Assembly: GCA_023150345.1 (NCBI GenBank) | Contig: JAKLLB010000026.1 | Coordinates: forward strand, 1 to 43,387 | DNA: 43,387 nt | Direction of reading: 5' to 3' | DNA from: Aquabacterium sp. | GTDB taxonomy: Bacteria; Pseudomonadota; Gammaproteobacteria; Burkholderiales; Burkholderiaceae_C | Shown: positions 9,230 through 29,240 of the stretch, in pieces | Position numbering within the stretch: position 1 is the first letter of the stretch | Layout of the letters: every line of letters starts with the position of its first letter | Translations under genes and position numbers: made by a program | The notes under the pieces: model-generated | Databases searched by the model: none | Seen by the model: only the letters and a program-made list of their open reading frames with translations | Told to the model about the DNA's origin: nothing

Positions 9230-10816
9230 ATGAGTGCATCCGCTTTGCCTGTGGTGATCGTCGGTGCCGGCTTGGCCGGACTGAGCGCAGCCCTCGAACT
9301 GGCCGATAACCGGCCGGTTTGCGTGCTAGCCAAGCGCGGTCTCACCGAGGCCGCCACGCCATGGGCACAGGGCGGTATCGTCGGCGTGCTGGGTGACGAC
9401 GACAGCGTCGAGGCCCATGTCCAGGACACCGAAACGGCCGGCGCCGGGCTCGTAGACGATGCCACGGCCAGGTTCGTGTCACAGCACAGCGCCAGGGCCA
9501 TCCAGTGGCTGCTGGCGCAAGGTGTCCAACTGACCCACGACGCGCGCGGCCCGATGGGTCTGCATCTGACGCGCGAGGGCGGGCACGGTGTGCGGCGCGT
9601 CGCCCATGCTGCCGATGCCACTGGCCGTGCCATCCACGAGGCGCTGCTCGAGCGCGCCCGGGCGCACCCCAACATCACGCTGCGCGAGCATTGCATGGCC
9701 GTGGACCTGATTACCCATCGCCATGTGCAGCGCGGCAGCCCTGCCTGCCACGGCGTGTACGCACTCGATGTCGAGCAGCGCCAGGTGCTGGCTTTGCCGG
9801 CATCCGCGGTGGTGCTGGCCAGCGGCGGACTCGGGCGCGTCTACCGCTATACGTCGAACCCCGACACCGCCACTGGCGACGGCGTGGCCATGGCCTGGCG
9901 TGCCGGTTGCCGGGTGGCGAACATGGAGTTCATCCAGTTTCACCCCACTTGCCTGTACCACCCGCAGGATCGCGTGTTCCTGATCACCGAGGCGTTGCGT
10001 GGCGAGGGTGCGCTGTTGAAGCTGCCCGATGGCACTCGTTTCATGCCTGGGCACGACGCACGGGCGGAGCTGGCACCGCGGGACATCGTGGCGCGCGCGA
10101 TCGACTTCGAAATGAAGAAGCACGGTCTGGACCACGTCTGGCTGGATGCCACCCACCTGGGTGAGGCGCGGCTGCTCGAGCACTTCCCGACCATTCACGA
10201 GCGCTGCCTGGCGCTGGGCATCGACATTGCGCGCCAGTCGATTCCGGTGGTTCCCGCCGCGCATTACAGCTGTGGCGGGGTCGTGACCGACCTCAACGGT
10301 CGCAGCGACCTGCCGGGTCTGTACGTCGTCGGCGAGGCGGCCTACACGGGCCTGCACGGCGCCAACCGTCTGGCCAGCAACTCGCTGCTCGAATGCGTGG
10401 TGCTCGGACATGCCGCGGCGCGCCATATCCAGGGCAGCACATGGACCGAGGCCGCGCCGGTGCCGGGTTGGGACGAGAGCCGCGTGGAGGACGCCGACGA
10501 GCAAGTGGTGATCGCCCACAACTGGGACGAGTTGCGGCTTCTGATGTGGAACTACGTTGGCATCGTGCGCAGCAGCAAGCGATTGGAGCGTGCGCTGCGC
10601 CGCATCGCACTGCTGCAGGGCGAGATCAACGAGTACTACGCGAGCTTTCGCATCACGCCTGACCTCTTGGAACTGCGCAACTTGGCCGTGTGTGCCGAAC
10701 TGATCGTGCGCTCGGCGCTGGCCCGTCCCGAGAGCCGGGGGCTGCACTTCAGCCTCGACTATCCCGAGCCCCTGCCGGCGAGCTTCCCGACGGTGCTGCC
10801 CGGACGGCGCAACTGA
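9230..10816 (+). CDS. nadB: L-aspartate oxidase
   Basis: A flavoprotein that oxidises aspartate to iminoaspartate, the first step of de novo NAD synthesis; NadA uses the product. The 528-residue protein has the FAD dinucleotide fold VVIVGAGLAGLSAALELA at the N-terminus, ATPWAQGGI, the substrate-site segment GGHGVRRVAHAADATG, GGLGRVYRYTSNP, EFIQFHPTCLY, HYSCGGVVTDLNGRSDLPGL and GANRLASNSLLECVV, all typical of NadB and its fumarate reductase relatives. It faces nadC across 30 bases. Start ATG 9230 gives MSASALPVVIVGAG. Confidence 0.97.
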   Translation: MSASALPVVIVGAGLAGLSAALELADNRPVCVLAKRGLTEAATPWAQGGIVGVLGDDDSVEAHVQDTETAGAGLVDDATARFVSQHSARAIQWLLAQGVQLTHDARGPMGLHLTREGGHGVRRVAHAADATGRAIHEALLERARAHPNITLREHCMAVDLITHRHVQRGSPACHGVYALDVEQRQVLALPASAVVLASGGLGRVYRYTSNPDTATGDGVAMAWRAGCRVANMEFIQFHPTCLYHPQDRVFLITEALRGEGALLKLPDGTRFMPGHDARAELAPRDIVARAIDFEMKKHGLDHVWLDATHLGEARLLEHFPTIHERCLALGIDIARQSIPVVPAAHYSCGGVVTDLNGRSDLPGLYVVGEAAYTGLHGANRLASNSLLECVVLGHAAARHIQGSTWTEAAPVPGWDESRVEDADEQVVIAHNWDELRLLMWNYVGIVRSSKRLERALRRIALLQGEINEYYASFRITPDLLELRNLAVCAELIVRSALARPESRGLHFSLDYPEPLPASFPTVLPGRRN

Positions 10817-10824
10817 TCGCCTCT

Positions 10825-10839
10825 GCAGCGGACGGCTGC
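10825..10839. terminator. Short hairpin between convergent nadB and nadC
   Basis: GCAGC and GCTGC enclose a 5-base loop in the 30-base gap between the two stop codons. The position suits a shared terminator, but the stem is only 5 bp and there is no T-tract on either side. Confidence 0.25.
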
Positions 10840-10846
10840 CGGCCTG

Positions 10847-11722
10847 TCAGGCCCCGGTCTCGGTCACCCGCATCGAGAAGTCGACGGCGCGCACGTCCTT
10901 GGTCAAGGTGCCCAATGAGATTCGGTCGACGCCGGTGGCGGCGATGTCTCGCAACTGCTCCAGGCTGACACCCCCGGATGTCTCGAGCAGGGCTCGCCCG
11001 GCGTTCCGGGCCACGGCCTCGCGGGTGGCTTCGAGCGAGAAGTTGTCGAGCAGGATGCTGCGCGCACCCGCGGCGAGCGCCTCGTCGAGTTGTGTCAAGG
11101 TCTCGACCTCGATCTGGATGTCCACCGCGGCATCCAGTGCGTGCGCCGCGCGCAGTGCTGCGCCCACGCCGCCCGCAGCGGCAATGTGGTTCTCCTTGAT
11201 CAGGATGCCATGCCAAAGCGCCAGGCGCTGGTTGGCCCCGCCACCCACGCGCACCGCGTACTTCTGAGCCAGTCGCAACCCCGGCACGGTCTTGCGGGTG
11301 TCCAGCACAGCGCAGCCGCGTGGGTTGGACGATGCGCCGGCGATGGCCTGCACGTGGGCGCGCGTGCGCGTGGCCGTGGCGGACAGCAACTGCAGGAAGT
11401 TCAGGGCGCTGCGTTCGGCACTGAGCAGCGCTCGGGCACGGGCACGGATTTCCACGACCACATCGCCTGGCGAGGTGTCGGCTCCCTCTGCACAGACCCA
11501 GCGCAACTGCGCATGTGGGTCGAGTGCCTGCACGCAGGCATCGAACCAGGCCTGGCCGCACAGCACGGCCGCATCACGGCAGACCACCTGGGCCACCGCC
11601 ATGCGCTCTTGTGGCACCAGCAGCGCGGTCCAGTCACCCGTGCCCAGGTCTTCGCGCAAGGCATCGCGCACGTTGCGCGCGCGGGCTTCTTCGAGGGTTT
11701 CGTTGTGTTCGAGCAGTTCCAT
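10847..11722 (-). CDS. nadC: Nicotinate-nucleotide diphosphorylase (carboxylating), quinolinate phosphoribosyltransferase
   Basis: NadC joins quinolinate to PRPP and decarboxylates it to nicotinate mononucleotide, the third step of de novo NAD synthesis. The product carries DALREDLGTGDWTA at the N-terminus, SAERSALNFLQLLSATAT, DTRKTVPGLRLAQKYAVRVG, GILIKENHI and LLDNFS. The frame extends far upstream, but conserved sequence starts at MELLEHNETLEEARARNV, so ATG at 11722 is chosen (291 residues). It lies 37 bases after nadA, so the two are likely one transcript. Confidence 0.95.
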   Translation of the reverse strand: MELLEHNETLEEARARNVRDALREDLGTGDWTALLVPQERMAVAQVVCRDAAVLCGQAWFDACVQALDPHAQLRWVCAEGADTSPGDVVVEIRARARALLSAERSALNFLQLLSATATRTRAHVQAIAGASSNPRGCAVLDTRKTVPGLRLAQKYAVRVGGGANQRLALWHGILIKENHIAAAGGVGAALRAAHALDAAVDIQIEVETLTQLDEALAAGARSILLDNFSLEATREAVARNAGRALLETSGGVSLEQLRDIAATGVDRISLGTLTKDVRAVDFSMRVTETGA

Positions 11723-11759
11723 CGCAAACCAAGCCTGAGGAAGTAGGCAGACCGGGGGC

Positions 11760-12899
11760 TCAGGCCGCGCCCATGTGACGCACCAGCCCGGTGGCGCCTG
11801 CCGCACTGCCGCCTGTGGCTGTGAAATGGAGCATGCGCTCGATGCAGCCCAATGCGCGCCGGCTGACATCGGTGTCGACGACGATCTCGCCGTGCCCGTG
11901 GTTCAGGCAGTCGAGCACGCCCTGCAGCCCGTTCATGGCCATCCAGGGGCAATGCGCACAGCTCTTGCACGTGGCGCTGCGACCGGCCGTGGGAGCCTCG
12001 ATGAGGCGCTTGCCGGGAGCGAGCTGGCGCATGCGGTGCATCAGGCCGTTGTCGGTGGCGACGATGTACTCGACAGCCTCGCCCTCGACCACTGCCTTGA
12101 GCAGCTGGGAAGTGGAGCCGACGACGTCAGCCTGCTTGACCACGCTGGCCGGGGACTCCGGATGCACCAGCACACGGGCTTGCGGGTGTTGTTGCCGCAG
12201 CAGTTCGAGCTCAAGCCCCTTGAACTCGTCATGCACGATGCATGCGCCGTCCCACAGCAGCATGTCGGCGCCTGTCTCCTCGGCGATGTAGCTGCCCAGG
12301 TGGCGGTCGGGTGCCCAGAGAATGCGCCGACCCTCTTCCTTCAGGTGGCGCACGATGGGCAGCGCGCAGGAGCTCGTGACCATCCAGTCGGCCCGTGCCT
12401 TCACGGCGGCGCTGGTGTTGGCGTACACGACCACCTCACGATCCGGGTGGGCATCGCAGAAGCGCGCGAACTCGTCGGCGGGGCACCCCAGGTCGAGCGA
12501 GCAGGTCGCGTCGAGATCGGGCATCAGCACGCGCTTGTGCGGTGAGAGGATCTTCGAGGTCTCGCCCATGAATCGCACCCCGGCGACGATCAGGGTGCGG
12601 GCGGGGTGATCGCGCCCGAACCGGGCCATTTCAAGTGAGTCGGCCACACAGCCGCCTGTGGCCAAGGCGAGATCCTGAAGGTCACCGTCGGTGTAGTAAT
12701 GTGCCACCAGCACGGCTTCGCCAGCACGCAAGCGGGCGGTGAGCTCGTCGAGCAGCGCCTGCCGGCGCGCAGCGCTGAGCGGTGCGGGTACCTTGGCCCA
12801 GGCGTGGGCCACGCAGCTGGCTCCATCGGCCTGCTGGAGGGTGTAGTCGAACAGCTGTTGCTTCACGGCTAAGGCGCATGGGGCGGGACATCCGCGCAT
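11760..12899 (-). CDS. nadA: Quinolinate synthase A
   Basis: A [4Fe-4S] enzyme that condenses iminoaspartate with dihydroxyacetone phosphate to quinolinate, downstream of Nad[57 protein letters not shown] and [15 protein letters not shown] are present; three cysteines from the last segments and from the N-terminal part bind the cluster. ATG at 12899 gives 379 residues, close to family length; an ATG at 12929 is possible. TAGGAT on the same strand (12919-12914) lies 14 bases before ATG 12899 as a candidate -10 element. Confidence 0.95.
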
Positions 12900-12972
12900 G
12901 TGGGCGCCACGCCATCCTAGCAGCGCCACGCAGGCGAGTCGCTCTGCCGGGCGCCGAGGGAACCCGAGCTCG

Positions 12973-14283
12973 TCAGGCAGCGGTCGGTGCGTCGGACTGC
13001 CCCGGATCCAGCCGGTGCAGCTTCATGCGTACCAGCGTCAAGTTGGCGACGTGGGAGTCGAGCACCGCATGCAGGGCCAGTCCTGGCGTCTGCGGCAACG
13101 GATGGAGGATCAGGTGGTGCTCGGCCAGCGTTACCGCAAGATCAGGCTCGCCGGGTGGCAGGCCCATGCTGCGTGCCACCTGCACCAGGGTTCTGAACAC
13201 GCCGCTGCCGCTGGAAGCAAGGGCCGCCGCACCCGGACGACTGCCGGCGTGCGCCAGCGTGCGCTCAGTGGCCAGATCGAACACGCAGCAGCTGAGCATG
13301 CCCGGAATGCTGGCGCAGGCCTCGATGTACTCGCGCCAGGCGCCCGGTTGATCGGGGGAACCCGCCACTGCCGCGACAGGGGCCCGGGTGGCAGGCATGG
13401 GCCGCAGTGGCAGTGGCGCAACCGCGGGCGCCGAGATGGATGCGGGCGCCGGCGCGGGCCTGGTGGGTACCGCAGTACCGGGCCGTGGCAACGGGGCCGC
13501 TGTCGGCGCCGGTGCGGTCGGTGCCAGTTGCGGGCTCTCTCCAGTGCGCAGCTGGTTCCACAAGCTGCTGATGATCGGCCATGCCTGGCCCAGGTCGGAT
13601 ACCGGTGGAGCGGTGTGAACCTGAATGGCGCCGCGCATCGGCAAGTGATGCGCCGGCGATGACAGTGACTCCAGGCCCACGGGCAGCCAGAGCAACTGAT
13701 GGTTGCGCCAGGCGGGCTCTGCCATGGCGTCGCGCAGCCGCAGCAGGGTCGGCTCGGCTGTGGCGCCATCAGCGCCACCCGTCAGCACGACCGCCAGCCG
13801 ACTGTGGCCGAGCAGCACGTGGGCCAGCGCGTTGCGTTCGGCCGGCTCAGGTGTATCCGTGAATGTGCTGTACAGGCGCACACGGGGGCCATCGGCCGGA
13901 CCCGGCAACTCGACGAACTCGATCGTCGCCAACGCCACGCCGAAGCCCTGGCGCCGGATCACCAGCTTCTGTACCTTGCGACGCAGCGCGCGCGCCAGGC
14001 CGCGCAGCAAACGCAGTGAATCGGCACCCTTGAGATCGTGCAGCGCCAGAAAGTCGGGCGTGCGCAACTCGAACTGCTGGTGCATCGCCTCCGAAGGGTC
14101 GCACACCACGAACAGTTCATGCTGTTCGGCATTGATGCGCCGGCCAATGGCGTGGTTCTGGCCGCCGAGGTATGCCTCCTTGTCGCCCATCAGCTGCGTT
14201 TGCAGCACGGTTTCGGCCCGGGTGCGGGCCCATTCGTCCTCGACATCGGGGCGGTTAGGCATGTGGGGGTGCGGCGAACGCAT
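12973..14283 (-). CDS. Unknown protein with C-terminal roadblock/LC7-like domain (downstream paralog)
   Basis: About 436 residues in three parts. Residues 1-245 form a globular domain of unknown family containing [20 protein letters not shown] and [20 protein letters not shown]. Residues about 248-312 are a Pro/Ala-rich linker. Residues about 316-425 look like a roadblock/LC7 fold: [20 protein letters not shown], a helix, then [20 protein letters not shown] and a final helix [17 protein letters not shown]. Roadblock proteins dimerise and serve as scaffolds or regulators of small GTPases such as MglA; no GTPase P-loop is seen here or nearby. The N-domain aligns by eye with the upstream gene at 14671. 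Start choice is uncertain: a TTG at 14292 overlaps the ComFB stop as TTGA; ATG 14283 or 14262 are alternatives. Confidence 0.6.
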
Positions 14284-14288
14284 GTGAA

Positions 14289-14573
14289 TCAACGGCGGGC
14301 GGCCATTGCGTGGCGGGCTTGGACGAACGCATAGGCATGTTCGACGGCTTCCGCAATGGTTCGCTCATTGTCTGCGCGTTCACGCTCCGTGAGGAAGAAG
14401 GCCAGATCCACATCATGACGGATGTAGCGCGGCGGCACACGGTTTAGTGCCACGCACGCCACATCGGCCAGCAGGTCGGGATTGGCGGCCACGCCAGGGT
14501 GCGTCGCAGCGGCGCGGGCAACGGCCTCGAAGACCGCGTTCTCGTGGATGTTGTGGACGGACGAGAAGTCCAT
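14289..14573 (-). CDS. ComFB-family protein
   Basis: A 94-residue protein with [39 protein letters not shown] and a final helix ERTIAEAVEHAYAFVQAR. The pattern of an N-terminal helix with N-E, then DV-C-ALNR-PPRY, is that of the late competence protein ComFB family, which recent work describes as cyclic di-nucleotide (c-di-GMP/c-di-AMP) receptors. Start ATG 14573 gives MDFSSVHNIHENAV; the frame is open further upstream to 14630 but that part is not family-like. It sits between two paralogous roadblock-type genes, 97 bases after one and touching the other, so it probably works with them. Function here is inference from the family. Confidence 0.72.
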   Translation of the reverse strand: MDFSSVHNIHENAVFEAVARAAATHPGVAANPDLLADVACVALNRVPPRYIRHDVDLAFFLTERERADNERTIAEAVEHAYAFVQARHAMAARR

Positions 14574-14670
14574 GGGCGGGCCTTGCTTCTGAGTGGACCA
14601 GTGACCGGTTATCGGTACCGCCCGTACCACCCTTGAGCGGTGGTGGTCCGCTCGCCACCCGCGGGTCGGA

Positions 14671-15846
14671 TCAGGCCAGGTACCGCTCGGCTTCCAGCAG
14701 TCTAAAGCGAAGCAGCGCCAGATTGGCCTGAGAACGGTCCACCAAGGCCACGAAACCTGTGGACGATGTGGCGGGAAGGCTGCGCAGCAGCGCTTGCCTG
14801 GGTCCCATGGTGATCAGCAACTCGTCAGGAGTCGGGGAGTCGGGCGGGCTGGCGGCGGCGTGGGCCTGGCGCGCGGCGCACAGCGCGGCCGCGCTGCGCG
14901 CCAACTCATCGCGGGCTTCGCCCACGGCGTCGGTGCACAGCAAGTCTCCGCAACCCAGGTTCACCACGCCGAAGGCGAGCAGGCCGTCGGTGCGCGAAAC
15001 CAGCTGCAGCGCGCGCTGCACACCTTGCGGGCTCAGCGGCGCCGGTTCGACACCCCGCGGTTCGGCACCGGGCGCGGGCTCGCGTGCCACCAAGGGTCGG
15101 GGGGAAGCCGTGGCGGCCTCCCAGGCGGTCAGGACGGTGTTCCAGACGGCCGAAGCACCCGCCATCGGCTCGCACATGGCAGCGGCGCGGACATGCGCCG
15201 GCCAGGGTTGGGTCAAGATGCGTTGGCGCAGCGCCGGTGCGCCAGGCGGCAGCAAGAAGACGAGCCAGGGACAGCGCCATTCGGGTTGTCGTGTGGCATC
15301 GAGGATCGCTTGCACCAGGGCAAGCACGGCCGGTGGTTGCATCGCGCCGACGATCACGGCCGTGAGGTGGCTGCCTTCGGCCAGGGCACTGGCAATGGCC
15401 TCCTGGTCGGGTCCGGTGGCTCGAACGTCCGGGTGGTAGACCTTCAGCGGTGCGGCATCGTGTCGAGGAACTGTGGTTCGCTCGATGACGGCCAGCGTGC
15501 GCAACGTGCCGCGCTCGCGCAGGTTGAGTCGCTCCAGGGGCTGCCCCGCGGCGGTCGATAGCGCAGCGAGCACTTGCGGCGCCCACAGGTGCGACGGATC
15601 GAGCAGGGTGATCATGGCCCCGGCTGCGCCCAAGTCGGCGCGCGTGGTGGCGAAGTGCGTGCGGATCGCCACAGCCGCACTGGCGTCGACCACCACGTCG
15701 ACGCCACGCTCGACGCGGGGCCGCGCCCGCACCTGCGGCGTCGCAACGGCGTCAGCGTCAGCCGAAGCGTACGCCACGGGCTCGTCTGGGCTGCGGGTGC
15801 CAGGCATCAGGCGAGGCGCCAGTTCACCGAACAGGGTACGCAACAT
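14671..15846 (-). CDS. Unknown protein with C-terminal roadblock/LC7-like domain (upstream paralog)
   Basis: A 391-residue protein from ATG 15846, preceded by GGGGAG at a normal distance (a TTG just upstream is also in frame). Residues about 1-240 form an unrecognised alpha/beta domain with GAAGAMITLLDPSHLWAPQV and HLTAVIVGAMQPPAVLALVQ; then a Pro/Ala/Glu linker; then residues about 273-391 resemble a roadblock/LC7 fold (VSRTDGLLAFGVVNLGCGDL, a helix, DELLITMGPRQALLRSL, SQANLALLRFRLLEAER). LERLNLRERGTLRTLAVIER here aligns with [20 protein letters not shown] in the downstream gene, and EWRCPWLVFLLPPG with [13 protein letters not shown], so the two are full-length paralogs. No signal peptide or membrane segment is seen, so it is probably cytoplasmic. 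Confidence 0.6.
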   Translation of the reverse strand: MLRTLFGELAPRLMPGTRSPDEPVAYASADADAVATPQVRARPRVERGVDVVVDASAAVAIRTHFATTRADLGAAGAMITLLDPSHLWAPQVLAALSTAAGQPLERLNLRERGTLRTLAVIERTTVPRHDAAPLKVYHPDVRATGPDQEAIASALAEGSHLTAVIVGAMQPPAVLALVQAILDATRQPEWRCPWLVFLLPPGAPALRQRILTQPWPAHVRAAAMCEPMAGASAVWNTVLTAWEAATASPRPLVAREPAPGAEPRGVEPAPLSPQGVQRALQLVSRTDGLLAFGVVNLGCGDLLCTDAVGEARDELARSAAALCAARQAHAAASPPDSPTPDELLITMGPRQALLRSLPATSSTGFVALVDRSQANLALLRFRLLEAERYLA

Positions 15847-15870
15847 CAAGGTCTCCCCACCGATGACAGC

Positions 15871-15876
15871 ACTCTA
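15871..15876 (-). promoter_or_regulatory. Candidate -10 element of the roadblock-ComFB cluster
   Basis: TAGAGT on the minus strand ends 24 bases before ATG 15846, leaving a leader of roughly 18 bases with the ribosome site GGGGAG. The best upstream hexamer is TTACGC at a 19-base spacing, which is poor. Confidence 0.3.
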
Positions 15877-15975
15877 GTGGCACCCGCCCGATACAGCGTA
15901 AGCCATTGTTGCGGCCGACCCGGGGCGATGACGCCGCGACCCTGAGCGAGGCAGGGCAGGCGGGATGGATCTACC

Positions 15976-17247
15976 ATGTCACACATGCAAGTGCGCCCGC
16001 TCTCTGACGGCAGCCGCGGCCAGGATGTGCAGACGATCGGACTGATCGGTCTGGCCCACGGAACGTCGCATTTCTTCCACATGCTCTTGCCACCGATGTT
16101 CCCGTGGCTGATCGACGCATTTGGATTGAATTACTCGCAGCTGGGTCTACTTGTCAGCGTCTTCTTCGTGATTTCGGGTACCGGTCAAGCGCTTGCCGGT
16201 TTTCTGGTCGACCGCGTCGGCGCGCGCCCGGTGCTCTACGCGGCATTGGTGTGCTTCGCTGCGGCGGCTATCGCGGCAGCCGTTGCACCGGGCTATGGCG
16301 GGCTGATGGTGGCTGCGGCCTTGGCCGGGCTGGGCAATGCGCCGTTTCATCCCGTGGACTTCACCATCCTCAACAAGCGGGTTTCCCAGGGGCGGCTCGG
16401 TCATGCGTTTTCGGTGCATGGCATTTCGGGCAACCTGGGCTGGGCATCGGCACCTGTGTTCCTGCTGGGCGTGACCACCGCCACCGGCTCGTGGCGTGCG
16501 GCCTACAGCGCCGCCGCCCTGGTACCGCTGGCCGTGCTGGCCATCCTGATCTGGCAGCGGCGCGCCGTGGATGATCGCCTCGGATCCTGGGCACCTCCTG
16601 CCGAGCAGCGGGATCGGCCTGCCGCAGTGGTGTCGGAACACCCGATGGCGTTTCTGCGCCTGCCGTCGGTGTGGCTGTGCTTCTCGTTCTTCTTCTGGAC
16701 CACGGTCACGCTTTCTGCAGTGCAGAGCTTTGCCGGTCCGGCGCTGCTGATCAGCTATGGGCTGCCCAAGGCCTGGAGTTCGATGCTCGTGACCGGCTAC
16801 ATGATCTGTGGCGCCGTGGGCATGCTCCTGGGTGGCTTTCTAGCCGTTCGTGCCGAGCGGCTCGAGCGCGTGATCGCGGCCAGCCTGCTCACGTGCGGCC
16901 TGCTGCTGCTGCTGGTGGGGCTTGGCTGGGTCCAGGGTGTCGCGGCAGCGTGGCTGGTCATCCTGGCGGGACTGGGCAGCGGCATGGCCGGGCCTTCGCG
17001 CGACATGTTGATCAAGCGCGCTGCGCCTGCGGGCGCCACGGGGCGCGTCTACGGCACTGTCTACTCCGGACTGGATCTCGGTTTCGCGCTGGCCGCCCCG
17101 GTGCTGGGGGCGCTCATGGATCGGGGCCAGCCGTTGGCCATCTTCCTGGTGGGTGCCGGAGCGTTGGTGGTGGGCGTGGCATCGGCTGCCTGGGTCGGCC
17201 GCGCCGTCGGCGGCGGCAGGGCGCGCCCTGCGGCGAAAATGGCGTGA
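15976..17247 (+). CDS. MFS transporter (fosmidomycin-resistance-like group)
   Basis: A 423-residue, 12-helix major facilitator protein. The start LIGLAHGTSHFFHMLLPPMF and the loop after helix 2, FLVDRVGARPVLYAAL, fit the family; DFTILNKRVSQGRLGHAFSV and PSRDMLIKRAAPAGATGRVY are conserved cytoplasmic segments. The HG-SHFFH opening resembles the Fsr-like group of exporters. Substrate is unknown. ATG 15976 is used, with a second ATG three codons later. The stop codon shares a base with the start of the thiamine-diphosphate enzyme, so the two are translated together and the transporter may move its substrate or product. Confidence 0.85.
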   Translation: MSHMQVRPLSDGSRGQDVQTIGLIGLAHGTSHFFHMLLPPMFPWLIDAFGLNYSQLGLLVSVFFVISGTGQALAGFLVDRVGARPVLYAALVCFAAAAIAAAVAPGYGGLMVAAALAGLGNAPFHPVDFTILNKRVSQGRLGHAFSVHGISGNLGWASAPVFLLGVTTATGSWRAAYSAAALVPLAVLAILIWQRRAVDDRLGSWAPPAEQRDRPAAVVSEHPMAFLRLPSVWLCFSFFFWTTVTLSAVQSFAGPALLISYGLPKAWSSMLVTGYMICGAVGMLLGGFLAVRAERLERVIAASLLTCGLLLLLVGLGWVQGVAAAWLVILAGLGSGMAGPSRDMLIKRAAPAGATGRVYGTVYSGLDLGFALAAPVLGALMDRGQPLAIFLVGAGALVVGVASAAWVGRAVGGGRARPAAKMA

Positions 17248-26488: not shown

Positions 26489-28282
26489 TCAGGCCCTGGC
26501 GTCGCCGCCCTGCGCCAGAATCAATGCACGCTCGGCCGCATCCAGCAGCGCTTCGACGGTCGCTCCGTCGCGCGGGAAGAGCGCCACCCCGATGTGGGCG
26601 GCAGGCCTCACCGCCAGTTGGTCGATCGTCATCGGACGCACGATGCTCTGGCGCACCTTTGATGCAATGACTTCGGCATAGTCAGGCTCGTCAAATCCGT
26701 CGCACAGCAAAGCGAACCGGTGGGTGCCCATGCGTGCTGCGACGTCAACCTCGCGAACACTGCCACGCAAGCGCCCGGCGATGGATGGCAGCAGGGCTTC
26801 AGATGGGCCACCGGTACCGTCACCATCAGTCGCACTGGACAGGAGGTCCGACGGTGGCGCCAGGATGTCGCGATCGGTCCCGGCGCCGGTGCCGAGCGGG
26901 ATGGCGTCGGACACCGGCTGCACCGGATCGAGCTCGATCAGCATCAGCGCGAAGATCCGATGGCTCCGACGGGCCTTGGCCATGGCTCCTTCCAGCAGTT
27001 CCCTGAACAGGCGCTGGTTGGGCAGACCGGTCAGTGGGTCGTGCGTGGCCAGGCGTTCAGCGGTCTCCCGGCTGTCGCGCAACTCGGTCATGCGCGATTG
27101 CACCTGCTGCTGCATGGCGTGTAGCGCTCGTCCGAGTTCGCCAACCTCGTCATGCCGGTGCGTCGGCAATGCCTGCATCGCCTGGTCATGCGCAAAGGCA
27201 TGCGCCGCATCCGTCATCGAGCGCAGTGGACGTGAAATGCGTCGCGCGATCAGCCAGCCCACACCGCCGGCCAGCAATGTGGCCAAGGCGATTTGCTGCC
27301 AGGCGCTGATGGCGATGTCGCGCGTCGCGTCGACGATGTGCGCATGTGTGCGTGCAAGGCCGAGCACCATGAACCGGCCTTCGCCAGGATCGCCGATCGA
27401 CAGGCGCGCGAATGCCGCGACCAGCGCATCGTCACCACTGCCGGCCTCGCGGCCATACCCCACGACCGTGTCCTGCGGGCCCTCGAGCACTTGGGCGGCC
27501 ACCGGAAAGTCCGACTGCACCAGGTAGCGTCGGCCGGTGTCGAACCCGAAGGTGCGGCGGGTGTCGGGGTGTATCAAGTAGTCGCCGTGGCGGTTGGTCA
27601 TGTAGACACGCACAGTGGGCGGCAGGTCGGCGCGCAACAGCTCGAACAGCCCCCCCATGTCGATGTTGATCACCAGCACGCCGATCACGACACCGTCGTC
27701 GTGCGCCACCGGGACCGCTACTCGCAATGTCGGCCGGTCCTCGGCGCCGTGTACCCCCTCCTCCCGATTGAGGGAAATCGTGGACAGGTAGACCTGCCCA
27801 GCCAGTCGCTGCTGCGCCTCGTACACGTACGGGTAATGCCCTTTCTCCTGCAGATCGTCGCCCAGCACCCGGACAGTGCCATTGGCAGTGCGGTCAACCC
27901 GCACGATCTCGGGACCGCCTGTTGCGACCGAGATCAGTCGGACCTGCGTGTAGTTGGGGCGCGTCGCCAGCACGGCCTCGAACCACTCATGCATGACCCC
28001 GGTGGCCGGGGCGGTCTGCGCAGCCGACGTCCGTCCCGATAGCGCCCGAGCCGCATACGGCGCGCTTGCCAGCATGCGCGCGTCGTGCTCCGCCATGAGC
28101 AAGGCCAGTCGCACGCTGCGCGCCAGCACGCGCACCGCTGCCGTCATGTCCTCTTCCGCTCTGGCTACGAGCAGATCGCGACTGGTGCGATAGCCGTGGA
28201 AGACGCCCGCGGCGGTCGCCGCGAATGCCAGTACGGCCACCAGCGCGCCGAGTTTCGCGGCGAGGCCGCCCGGGAAGATCAA
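26489..28282 (-). CDS. Membrane sensor with dCache-like periplasmic domain, HAMP and degenerate GGDEF domain
   Basis: 597 residues from TTG 28282, which follows GTGAGG; the next upstream gene ends seven bases earlier. Order: membrane helix (about 8-28), periplasmic sensor domain (about 30-280, with PTLRVAVPVAHDDGVVIGVL and GDYLIHPDTRRTFGFDTGRR, as in double Cache domains), second helix (about 315-335), HAMP (ARRISRPLRSMTDAAHAFAH), then a GGDEF fold starting HDPLTGLPNQRLFRELL at about 414. The signature reads ARMGTHRFALL at about 516-526, so GGDEF is GTHRF, and the usual D-x-F-K-x-I-N-D...GH..GD stretch is replaced by a Gly/Pro-rich insert (about 453-495). It should not make c-di-GMP; it may bind a partner or nucleotide. 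No EAL domain is present. Partner is probably the binding protein just upstream. Confidence 0.85.
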   Translation of the reverse strand: MIFPGGLAAKLGALVAVLAFAATAAGVFHGYRTSRDLLVARAEEDMTAAVRVLARSVRLALLMAEHDARMLASAPYAARALSGRTSAAQTAPATGVMHEWFEAVLATRPNYTQVRLISVATGGPEIVRVDRTANGTVRVLGDDLQEKGHYPYVYEAQQRLAGQVYLSTISLNREEGVHGAEDRPTLRVAVPVAHDDGVVIGVLVINIDMGGLFELLRADLPPTVRVYMTNRHGDYLIHPDTRRTFGFDTGRRYLVQSDFPVAAQVLEGPQDTVVGYGREAGSGDDALVAAFARLSIGDPGEGRFMVLGLARTHAHIVDATRDIAISAWQQIALATLLAGGVGWLIARRISRPLRSMTDAAHAFAHDQAMQALPTHRHDEVGELGRALHAMQQQVQSRMTELRDSRETAERLATHDPLTGLPNQRLFRELLEGAMAKARRSHRIFALMLIELDPVQPVSDAIPLGTGAGTDRDILAPPSDLLSSATDGDGTGGPSEALLPSIAGRLRGSVREVDVAARMGTHRFALLCDGFDEPDYAEVIASKVRQSIVRPMTIDQLAVRPAAHIGVALFPRDGATVEALLDAAERALILAQGGDARA

Positions 28283-28289
28283 GCGAACC

Positions 28290-29240
28290 TCACCGCAGCC
28301 GCTCCGGGCGTTCGCCCGACATGATGCGGCGCCACAGCGCCGCGCGCCGCGACTCGTCCTCCACGGGTTCGAGCCAGACCAGCCTTCCGTCGGCGACGGC
28401 TGTGGGCAGCGGCTCGACGGTGTTGGCCAGTCCCTGGCGCTCACTGAGCCGGCGACCCACCGATACCGACAGCATGTGGTCGAGCCAGGCGTGGGCCAGC
28501 TCGAGCCGCGTGCAGGCGGCAGTGATGGCCCAGCAGTCGAGCCACGCCAGGGCGCCTTCGCGCGGCAGCACATATCCCACGTCTGCGCCAGCGTCGCGAA
28601 GGAGCTTGATCTGCTGGCTGCCGTAGTTGGCGAACATCAGTGCCACGCGATGGCGGCGAAACAGCTCGACGGACTCCTCCGGCTGGGTGTAGAAGCCGCG
28701 TACGTTGCGCCGCAAGTCGACCAAGTGCCGTGCGACGCGCAGGATCTCATTGGACGGGATGCGAAACGGCGGCAACTCCAGCGCCTGCGCTGCCAGGGAA
28801 AAGTTGTGTGAGCTCCCGTCGTAGGCGAGCACCTTGCCCCGAAGTTGCGGATCCCACATCGATGTGATCGAGGCCGGCGGTCGAGACAACTGGCGGCGGT
28901 CGAAGATGAGACCCATCTCCGCGAAGGTGTACGGCAAGGCATGCAAGGTCCCTTGCCGCGTGAGACCCGGTATCGAGGCATGGTCGCGGAACCGCGGCAG
29001 CTGCCGAGCCGCGCGGGGTACGCGAGTCAGGTCGATCCGGGCCAGGCGCGAGGCTGCCGCGTAGCGGGCAATCTCTGCCGTGTTCGCCGCGAGCACATCG
29101 AAACCGGCGCTGCCTTGTGCATCGACATGGGCACGGAGTTGATCATCTGTCGCCACAGTTGTGATCTCGACCCGGCTGCGCGTGCGCTCCTCGAACTCGG
29201 CCACGATGTCGGCATCGGCATAGCCGGGCCAGGCGAGCAC
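28290..29240 (-). CDS. PotD-like periplasmic solute-binding protein, 5' end apparently truncated (no signal peptide)
   Basis: 316 residues from GTG 29240, VLAWPGYADADIVAEFEERT onward, matching type-2 periplasmic binding proteins of the spermidine/putrescine-binding kind; GFDVLAANTAEIARY, LPYTFAEMGLIFDR and the C-terminal hinge segment WLDCWAITAACTRLELAHAW fit. The domain starts at once with no signal peptide. The same frame continues upstream for 23 codons (ending SPAVAPLK, like a mature N-terminus) without any ATG, GTG or TTG, then meets TAG within a tRNA-like sequence. No permease or ATPase genes are nearby. Its neighbour is a membrane sensor, recalling NspS next to MbaA in Vibrio. It may be a broken gene, or start at a non-standard codon. 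Confidence 0.7.
   Translation of the reverse strand: MLAWPGYADADIVAEFEERTRSRVEITTVATDDQLRAHVDAQGSAGFDVLAANTAEIARYAAASRLARIDLTRVPRAARQLPRFRDHASIPGLTRQGTLHALPYTFAEMGLIFDRRQLSRPPASITSMWDPQLRGKVLAYDGSSHNFSLAAQALELPPFRIPSNEILRVARHLVDLRRNVRGFYTQPEESVELFRRHRVALMFANYGSQQIKLLRDAGADVGYVLPREGALAWLDCWAITAACTRLELAHAWLDHMLSVSVGRRLSERQGLANTVEPLPTAVADGRLVWLEPVEDESRRAALWRRIMSGERPERLR

Follow-up and report, generated by a model that had tools for sequence, protein, structure and literature searches.

A ComFB gene between paralogous genes for predicted pseudo-GTPase–roadblock fusions in Aquabacterium sp. suggests a bacterial relay of undescribed design

Introduction

In eukaryotes, Rag GTPases act as switches that report nutrients to TORC1; they also have kin in Asgard archaea. 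They form heterodimers of chains that each combine a nucleotide-binding domain with a roadblock domain, and the roadblock domains heterodimerize (PMC5696360). GTPase–roadblock fusions have also been reported from Asgard archaea (PMC10933270). Here, we describe three adjacent minus-strand genes of Aquabacterium sp., which encode two proteins with a similar predicted chain layout, named P1 and P3, and between them a small protein of the ComFB family. The genes lie in a stretch of 43,387 nucleotides (contig JAKLLB010000026.1 of assembly GCA_023150345.1), referred to below as the window. The combination of P1 and P3 with a putative signal-nucleotide receptor and with genes for the synthesis of nicotinamide adenine dinucleotide (NAD) suggests a bacterial relay of undescribed design.

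Other described systems share parts of this set. The actinobacterial conservons (Cvn/Mfp) are signaling modules in which a roadblock protein and a Ras-like GTPase are encoded by linked genes (PMC4316618, PMC13343842), and a further point of comparison is the MglA-MglB-MglC system of Myxococcus and Thermus. A survey of prokaryotic small GTPases dropped sequences longer than 240 amino acids (PMC4316618), which leaves fusions such as P1 and P3 outside its MglA set. Among ComFB-type proteins, cyanobacterial ComFB is reported to bind both cyclic di-AMP (c-di-AMP) and cyclic di-GMP (c-di-GMP) (PMC12313861), a dimer of CdgR to carry two c-di-GMP molecules (PMC13075795), and Bacillus subtilis ComFB to contain a four-cysteine zinc site (PMC4381287). 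Our literature search found no paper that joins ComFB with roadblock proteins, and among the matches listed, judged by titles and abstract openings, no bacterial Rag-like or roadblock fusion was recognizable as the P1/P3 system.

Results

P1 and P3 are paralogues with a predicted Rag-like layout

P1 (14671..15846, minus strand; 391 amino acids) starts with the motif MLRTLFGEL, followed by a domain of predicted GTPase fold without a P-loop (approximately residues 46-247), a linker, and a predicted roadblock domain (approximately 272-391). P3 (12973..14283, minus strand; 436 amino acids) has a disordered N-terminus, a domain of predicted GTPase fold, likewise without a P-loop (approximately 78-246), a linker rich in proline and alanine, and a predicted roadblock domain (approximately 311-430). 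Neither protein had a match in Pfam at E-values up to 1, the roadblock model Robl_LC7 (PF03259) included, or in NCBIfam. A phmmer search of the PDB with P1 gave no match; a weak match of the P3 linker to a beta-lactamase (E 0.026) was ascribed to composition.

Homologues were aligned separately for the two proteins. The P3 alignment (A1) holds 30 of 36 P3-type rows, after omission of L064 and L073 (unusually long open reading frames, ORFs), L084, L040, and L083 (incomplete), and L039 (same genus as L038). The P1 alignment (A2) holds 27 of 29 rows, after omission of L002 (a truncated copy of the window P1) and L086 (from genome G139, where stop codons interrupt the gene). In all aligned proteins, a linker rich in proline and alanine joins a conserved N domain of about 200 residues to a C domain that is conserved as well. 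A comparison of the two families with hhalign gave matches of 99.7% for the N domains and 99.5% for the C domains; by these profiles, the two proteins are paralogous, each with two domains. At the very start of the 27 P1 homologues the motif MLx[ST]LFG[DE]L is near-invariant, and model confidence is low right after it; this segment (window positions 15820-15846) is possibly a docking or membrane-binding peptide.

Full-length AlphaFold models of P1 and P3 were searched with Foldseek, and for both the top PDB matches were chains of eukaryotic Rag/Gtr complexes, spanning both domains. The top match of P3 was the EGOC chain 6jwp_B (E 1.2e-5, 385 columns). VIA, whose match lists are partial, so that a family missing from them is not thereby excluded, found MglA and Rab3B for the P1 N domain and, in a separate match, roadblocks for the C domain. 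A small-GTPase fold is therefore predicted for the N domains and a Roadblock/LC7 fold for the C domains of both proteins. A Ras-like domain followed by a C-terminal roadblock in one chain, which is the Rag/Gtr layout, was thus found by fold only (models, Foldseek, and VIA). We hold this overall two-domain anatomy with high confidence.

The preliminary description of this locus had named a ComFB protein flanked by two roadblock proteins, which is borne out by the Pfam ComFB score given below and by structure prediction, the check that it had proposed. Its remark that no GTPase lies nearby overlooks the domain of predicted GTPase fold, devoid of a P-loop, within both P1 and P3.

Canonical G1 and G4 motifs are missing from their places in all aligned homologues

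In all 57 aligned homologues of P1 and P3, GK[ST] is absent from the loop after strand 1, the place of the P-loop (G1), and the G4 motif [NT]KxD was not found within the first 270 residues. Three stray GKT occurrences lie elsewhere in two P3 sequences, one of which fits the full G1 pattern GxxxxGK[ST] by chance; DxxG occurs somewhere in 45 of the 57 and is uninformative. Given that the P-loop is missing throughout, P1 and P3 look like pseudo-GTPase–roadblock fusions. The loop itself is near-invariant within each family, with an invariant DP...WA in P1 and mostly HD...S in P3.

P1 and P3 are not members of the Rag family, as they lack its motifs and its Pfam match, but they are built alike. They share with RagA-RagC, Gtr1-Gtr2, and the Asgard LokiRagO a predicted Ras-like domain and roadblock in one chain, the presence of two paralogues, and the top Foldseek matches. 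They differ in the lost P-loop and NKxD, the long Pro/Ala-rich linker, their bacterial host, the presence of ComFB nearby, and the absence of a Ragulator. Unlike MglA-MglB-MglC, they are fused in one chain and have lost the GTPase motifs. The locus resembles the conservons as a roadblock and Ras-like module with linked genes, whereas here a degenerate GTPase part is fused to the roadblock, ComFB is present, and the neighbors identified with Pfam are nad, major facilitator superfamily (MFS), and thiamine pyrophosphate (TPP)-enzyme genes and include no kinase.

The ComFB protein and its likely ligand

The gene between P1 and P3 (14289..14573, minus strand) encodes a protein of 94 amino acids that scored 72.2 bits against the Pfam ComFB model (PF10719), for which the curated cut-off is 25. 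It did not reach the NCBIfam comFB equivalog (13.4 of 120 bits), and phmmer linked it only weakly to 8hja, a c-di-GMP receptor (E 0.016), with the core motif common to both. The protein thus resembles ComFB and CdgR in its Pfam domain, while it contains a single cysteine and hence no four-cysteine zinc site. It also stands outside any competence operon: no comF or competence genes surround it, the neighbors being nadA, nadC, and nadB, together with genes for a TPP enzyme and an MFS protein.

A search of the window's own genome (94% complete) for the diadenylate cyclase (DAC) domain gave no match, while 35 GGDEF stretches matched. c-di-AMP, which the preliminary description had kept as an option, is therefore unlikely as a ligand, and judging from this gene content c-di-GMP would be the likelier one, if the window ComFB binds a dinucleotide.

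Locus layout and neighboring genes

P1, ComFB, and P3 are genuine genes, with 97 bases between the P1 stop and the ComFB start and 5 bases between the ComFB stop and the P3 start. Next downstream of P3 lies nadA, encoding quinolinate synthase (11760..12899, minus strand; Pfam NadA 330.8 bits for ORF 11760-12929), with an uncertain start at either ATG 12899 or GTG 12929. It is followed by nadC, encoding quinolinate phosphoribosyltransferase (10847..11722, minus strand; Pfam QRPTase_C 164.2 bits for the longer ORF 10847-11869), and all five genes share one direction in the window. This run is faced by clpB and, as context only, by an L-aspartate oxidase gene on the opposite, plus strand (9230..10816; Pfam FAD_binding_2 311.4 bits), which we take to be nadB from its gene context; an MFS gene diverges upstream. 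The neighbors identified with Pfam are nad, MFS, and TPP-enzyme genes, with no kinase among them. Scans of 10700-16100 gave no promoter-like site (shuffled sequences: 0.3), and the single site resembling a terminator (shuffled sequences: 1.8) was on the opposite strand. Some 11 kb upstream, this contig also encodes a GGDEF protein with two GGDEF stretches (26489-28573, minus strand).

Gene order in relatives

Among the fetched loci, the usual order was MFS / P1-nadA-nadC-ComFB / nadB (opposite) / P3 / clpB (opposite). Apart from the window, the exact order P1-ComFB-P3 was seen only in L003 and L055, two near relatives, so that a conserved three-gene operon was rejected. For counts, 65 ComFB and 29 P1 loci were used, with the window, L002, and L003 included wherever the gene was present. 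Upstream of ComFB, the closest marker on its strand was nadA or nadC, within 250 bases, at 43 of the 65 ComFB loci, and P1 at 4; P1 directly preceded nadA within 124 bases at 14 of its 29 loci. The block hom-moeA-moaE-clpB-nad-MFS was often syntenic as a whole.

Several loci depart from this pattern. In L080 and L081, a P1-nadA-nadC-ComFB unit stands apart from P3-clpB (loci L059 and L067), and P3 remains beside clpB where the nad genes have gone. No nad gene was present at 16 of 40 ComFB loci from genomes without P3 (two of the 16, L113 and L124, lie on short contigs). In L123, from a genome of the same genus (G011), P1 and ComFB are 74 bases apart, with no nadA, nadB, nadC, or P3 within the fetched 15 kb; no P3 was found in this genome. 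Some genomes contain more than two family members: an extra divergent P1-like homologue lies between P1 and nadA in G058 (L045, about 4.9-6.0 kb), and another was seen in G133 (G133:C1:2804102-2804710).

Co-occurrence across genomes

The tally covered 200 genomes of the bacterial family to which the window's genome belongs, that genome included; P1 and P3 were assigned by us, an N-domain match was required, and G139 was not counted. Fisher values given here are not corrected for kinship. P3 was found in 34 genomes (25 genera) and P1 in 27 (20 genera), with 24 genomes containing both, 10 only P3, and 3 only P1 (Fisher 5e-20); the last were G011, G045, and G102, of which G045 and G102 are incomplete. 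ComFB was present in 24 of the 34 genomes with P3 and in 45 of the 166 without (24 both, 10 P3 only, 45 ComFB only; Fisher 2.7e-6), and is thus a frequent, not obligate, companion of P3. For P1 and ComFB, the counts were 16 both, 11 P1 only, and 53 ComFB only (Fisher 0.008). P3 was rarely alone: nine of the ten P3 genomes without ComFB have P1, and nine of the ten without P1 have ComFB, leaving G101 (93% complete, 6% contaminated) as the sole genome with P3 and neither of the others. In the rest of the order, ComFB was found in 0 of 249 other sampled genomes, and a P1 match covering the whole N domain likewise in 0 of 249 (with scoring of up to 7 candidates per genome).

Roadblock relatives in other genomes

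Stand-alone homologues of the C domain have two kinds of neighbor, a protein of the Robl_LC7 type and an MglA-like GTPase whose P-loop is intact, at three of the seven such loci fetched (L048, L050, and L054). In L050 (about 7.4-14 kb) and L054 (about 9.4-12 kb), a small operon encodes an uncharacterized protein of about 226-233 amino acids, the MglA-like GTPase, the Robl_LC7 protein, and a stand-alone roadblock of the P1/P3 type; in L050 it occurs twice.

Other fusions were seen as well. In another family of the Burkholderiales, a 335-residue ORF (L160:1495-2499, minus strand) combines an N part that by eye looks GTPase-like, with no visible P-loop, and a roadblock domain of this kind, joined by a linker, and is perhaps an independent pseudo-GTPase–roadblock fusion. 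A 534-residue ORF (L159:703-2304, plus strand) ends in a roadblock domain, which a middle region separates from an N-terminus that looks BLUF-like by eye; this is a possible light-sensing roadblock protein. In L158 (688-1926, plus strand), an N-terminus resembling a response regulator by eye is fused to the roadblock domain.

Discussion

We tentatively propose a scaffold made of P1 and P3 that receives its input from ComFB, a model that builds on predicted folds. P1 and P3 would be paralogues in which a roadblock follows a small-GTPase domain that is degenerate and has no P-loop, in the chain layout of Rag/Gtr. Their roadblock domains may pair as in RagA-RagC; by this analogy, and given that P1 comes with P3 in 24 of 27 P1 genomes, we consider a P1:P3 heterodimer an even bet. 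The two pseudo-GTPase heads would not be capable of ordinary GTP-driven switching. ComFB, as a putative dimeric receptor of a cyclic dinucleotide (more likely c-di-GMP), would dock on the scaffold and supply the switch, and P3 may pair with itself in genomes without P1. That ComFB is a partner of P1 and P3 at all is somewhat less probable than the opposite, even though P1 and ComFB stay together in L123, which we count for the model. The neighboring genes nadA and nadC are the first candidate for an output, a weakly held guess that we think improbable. The complete picture, a Rag-like pseudo-GTPase–roadblock heterodimer that is wired to NAD synthesis and takes its switch input from a ComFB dimer loaded with c-di-GMP and not from GTP, is likewise improbable.

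A number of observations weigh against this proposal. Against the PDB, the P3 profile retrieved no roadblock, and only four sequences stood behind each AlphaFold model, with modest confidence for P3 (mean predicted local distance difference test score 59.0). Across both domains, the root-mean-square deviation to Rag chains was about 9-19 Å, so that the domain arrangement either differs from that of Rag or is poorly predicted. In hhalign runs of the N-domain profiles against 36 bacterial MglA-like GTPases, with unrelated profiles as controls, P1 scored 1.0%, no better than an unrelated profile (1.1%). P3 reached 18.7% (16 unrelated profiles at most 1.0%), which is no proof of kinship, and the joint profile 2.6% (unrelated profiles at most 1.4%), over switch II to strand 4. 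Proof of GTPase homology by sequence was dropped after these scores, and the GTPase assignment rests on predicted folds. In Gammaproteobacteria, where 41 genomes were positive for ComFB, 20 ComFB stretches of 4 to 10 kb were fetched, and P1, P3, or nad genes were near ComFB in 0 of the 20. The ten P3 genomes that lack P1 imply that a P1:P3 heterodimer is not obligatory. Moreover, ComFB is missing from 10 of 34 P3 genomes and 11 of 27 P1 genomes, and 45 genomes have ComFB without P3.

The strongest alternative, only a little less probable than the proposed scaffold with its ComFB input, is that P1 and P3 form a Rag-like scaffold and ComFB is unrelated to it, acting alone and traveling with nadA and nadC by inherited gene order. 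This would explain why ComFB sits behind nadA or nadC so much more often than behind P1 (43 against 4 of 65 loci), in a block that is often syntenic as a whole, and why 45 of 69 ComFB genomes have no P3. It does not account for a co-occurrence of P3 and ComFB above chance, with the caveat on kinship given above, for the adjacency of P1 and ComFB in L123 where nad genes are absent, or for the presence of all three genes together in the window's clade. The linkage to nad genes can also be read functionally: the set might regulate de novo NAD synthesis in response to c-di-GMP, with the scaffold binding NadA and NadC or controlling their operon. The positions of P1 before nadA (14 of 29 loci) and ComFB after nadA or nadC, the unit in L080 and L081 away from P3 and clpB, and the five co-directional genes of the window all fit this idea. 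We nevertheless regard it as improbable, as 16 of 40 ComFB loci from P3-less genomes have no nad gene (two on short contigs), P3 keeps beside clpB after the nad genes have left, nad genes were near ComFB in none of the 20 fetched gammaproteobacterial stretches, and block synteny accounts for much of the linkage.

Two further explanations concern the N domains and their partners. The near-invariant loop after strand 1 is conserved in both P1 and P3 beyond the apparent need of a mere scaffold, and the N domains might bind a nucleotide or other small ligand through this reworked loop and act as sensors themselves; with the P-loop lysine and NKxD missing in all 57 homologues, we think this unlikely. 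Least probable of all is that P1 and P3 act like MglB and MglC, as regulators resembling GTPase-activating proteins or guanine nucleotide exchange factors, on a distinct small GTPase whose gene lies in another part of the genome. Roadblock proteins are known to regulate GTPases (PMC10933270), and relatives of the C domain adjoin GTPase genes in other genomes, but one MglA-like query, the only GTPase query run there, found no separate MglA-like gene in the window's own genome, which is 94% complete.

Taken as a whole, the preliminary description is partly supported. The two roadblock proteins occur together, as partners would, in 24 of 27 P1 genomes, though P3 is without P1 in 10 of its 34. Signaling from ComFB to the roadblock pair gains slight support from the enrichment of ComFB in P3 genomes, whereas the gene order that should accompany it is kept in the window's clade (L003 and L055) and is elsewhere interrupted by nad genes.

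If the predicted layout is true, P1 and P3 would be a bacterial pair with the chain layout of Rag and no P-loop, meaning that this design arose in, or reached, bacteria and can work without ordinary GTP binding. The pair would then offer a small system in which to study what roadblock scaffolds do alone. If ComFB is the input, it would represent a newly recognized class of cyclic-dinucleotide receptor joined to a roadblock module, and proteobacterial ComFB would gain a candidate partner.
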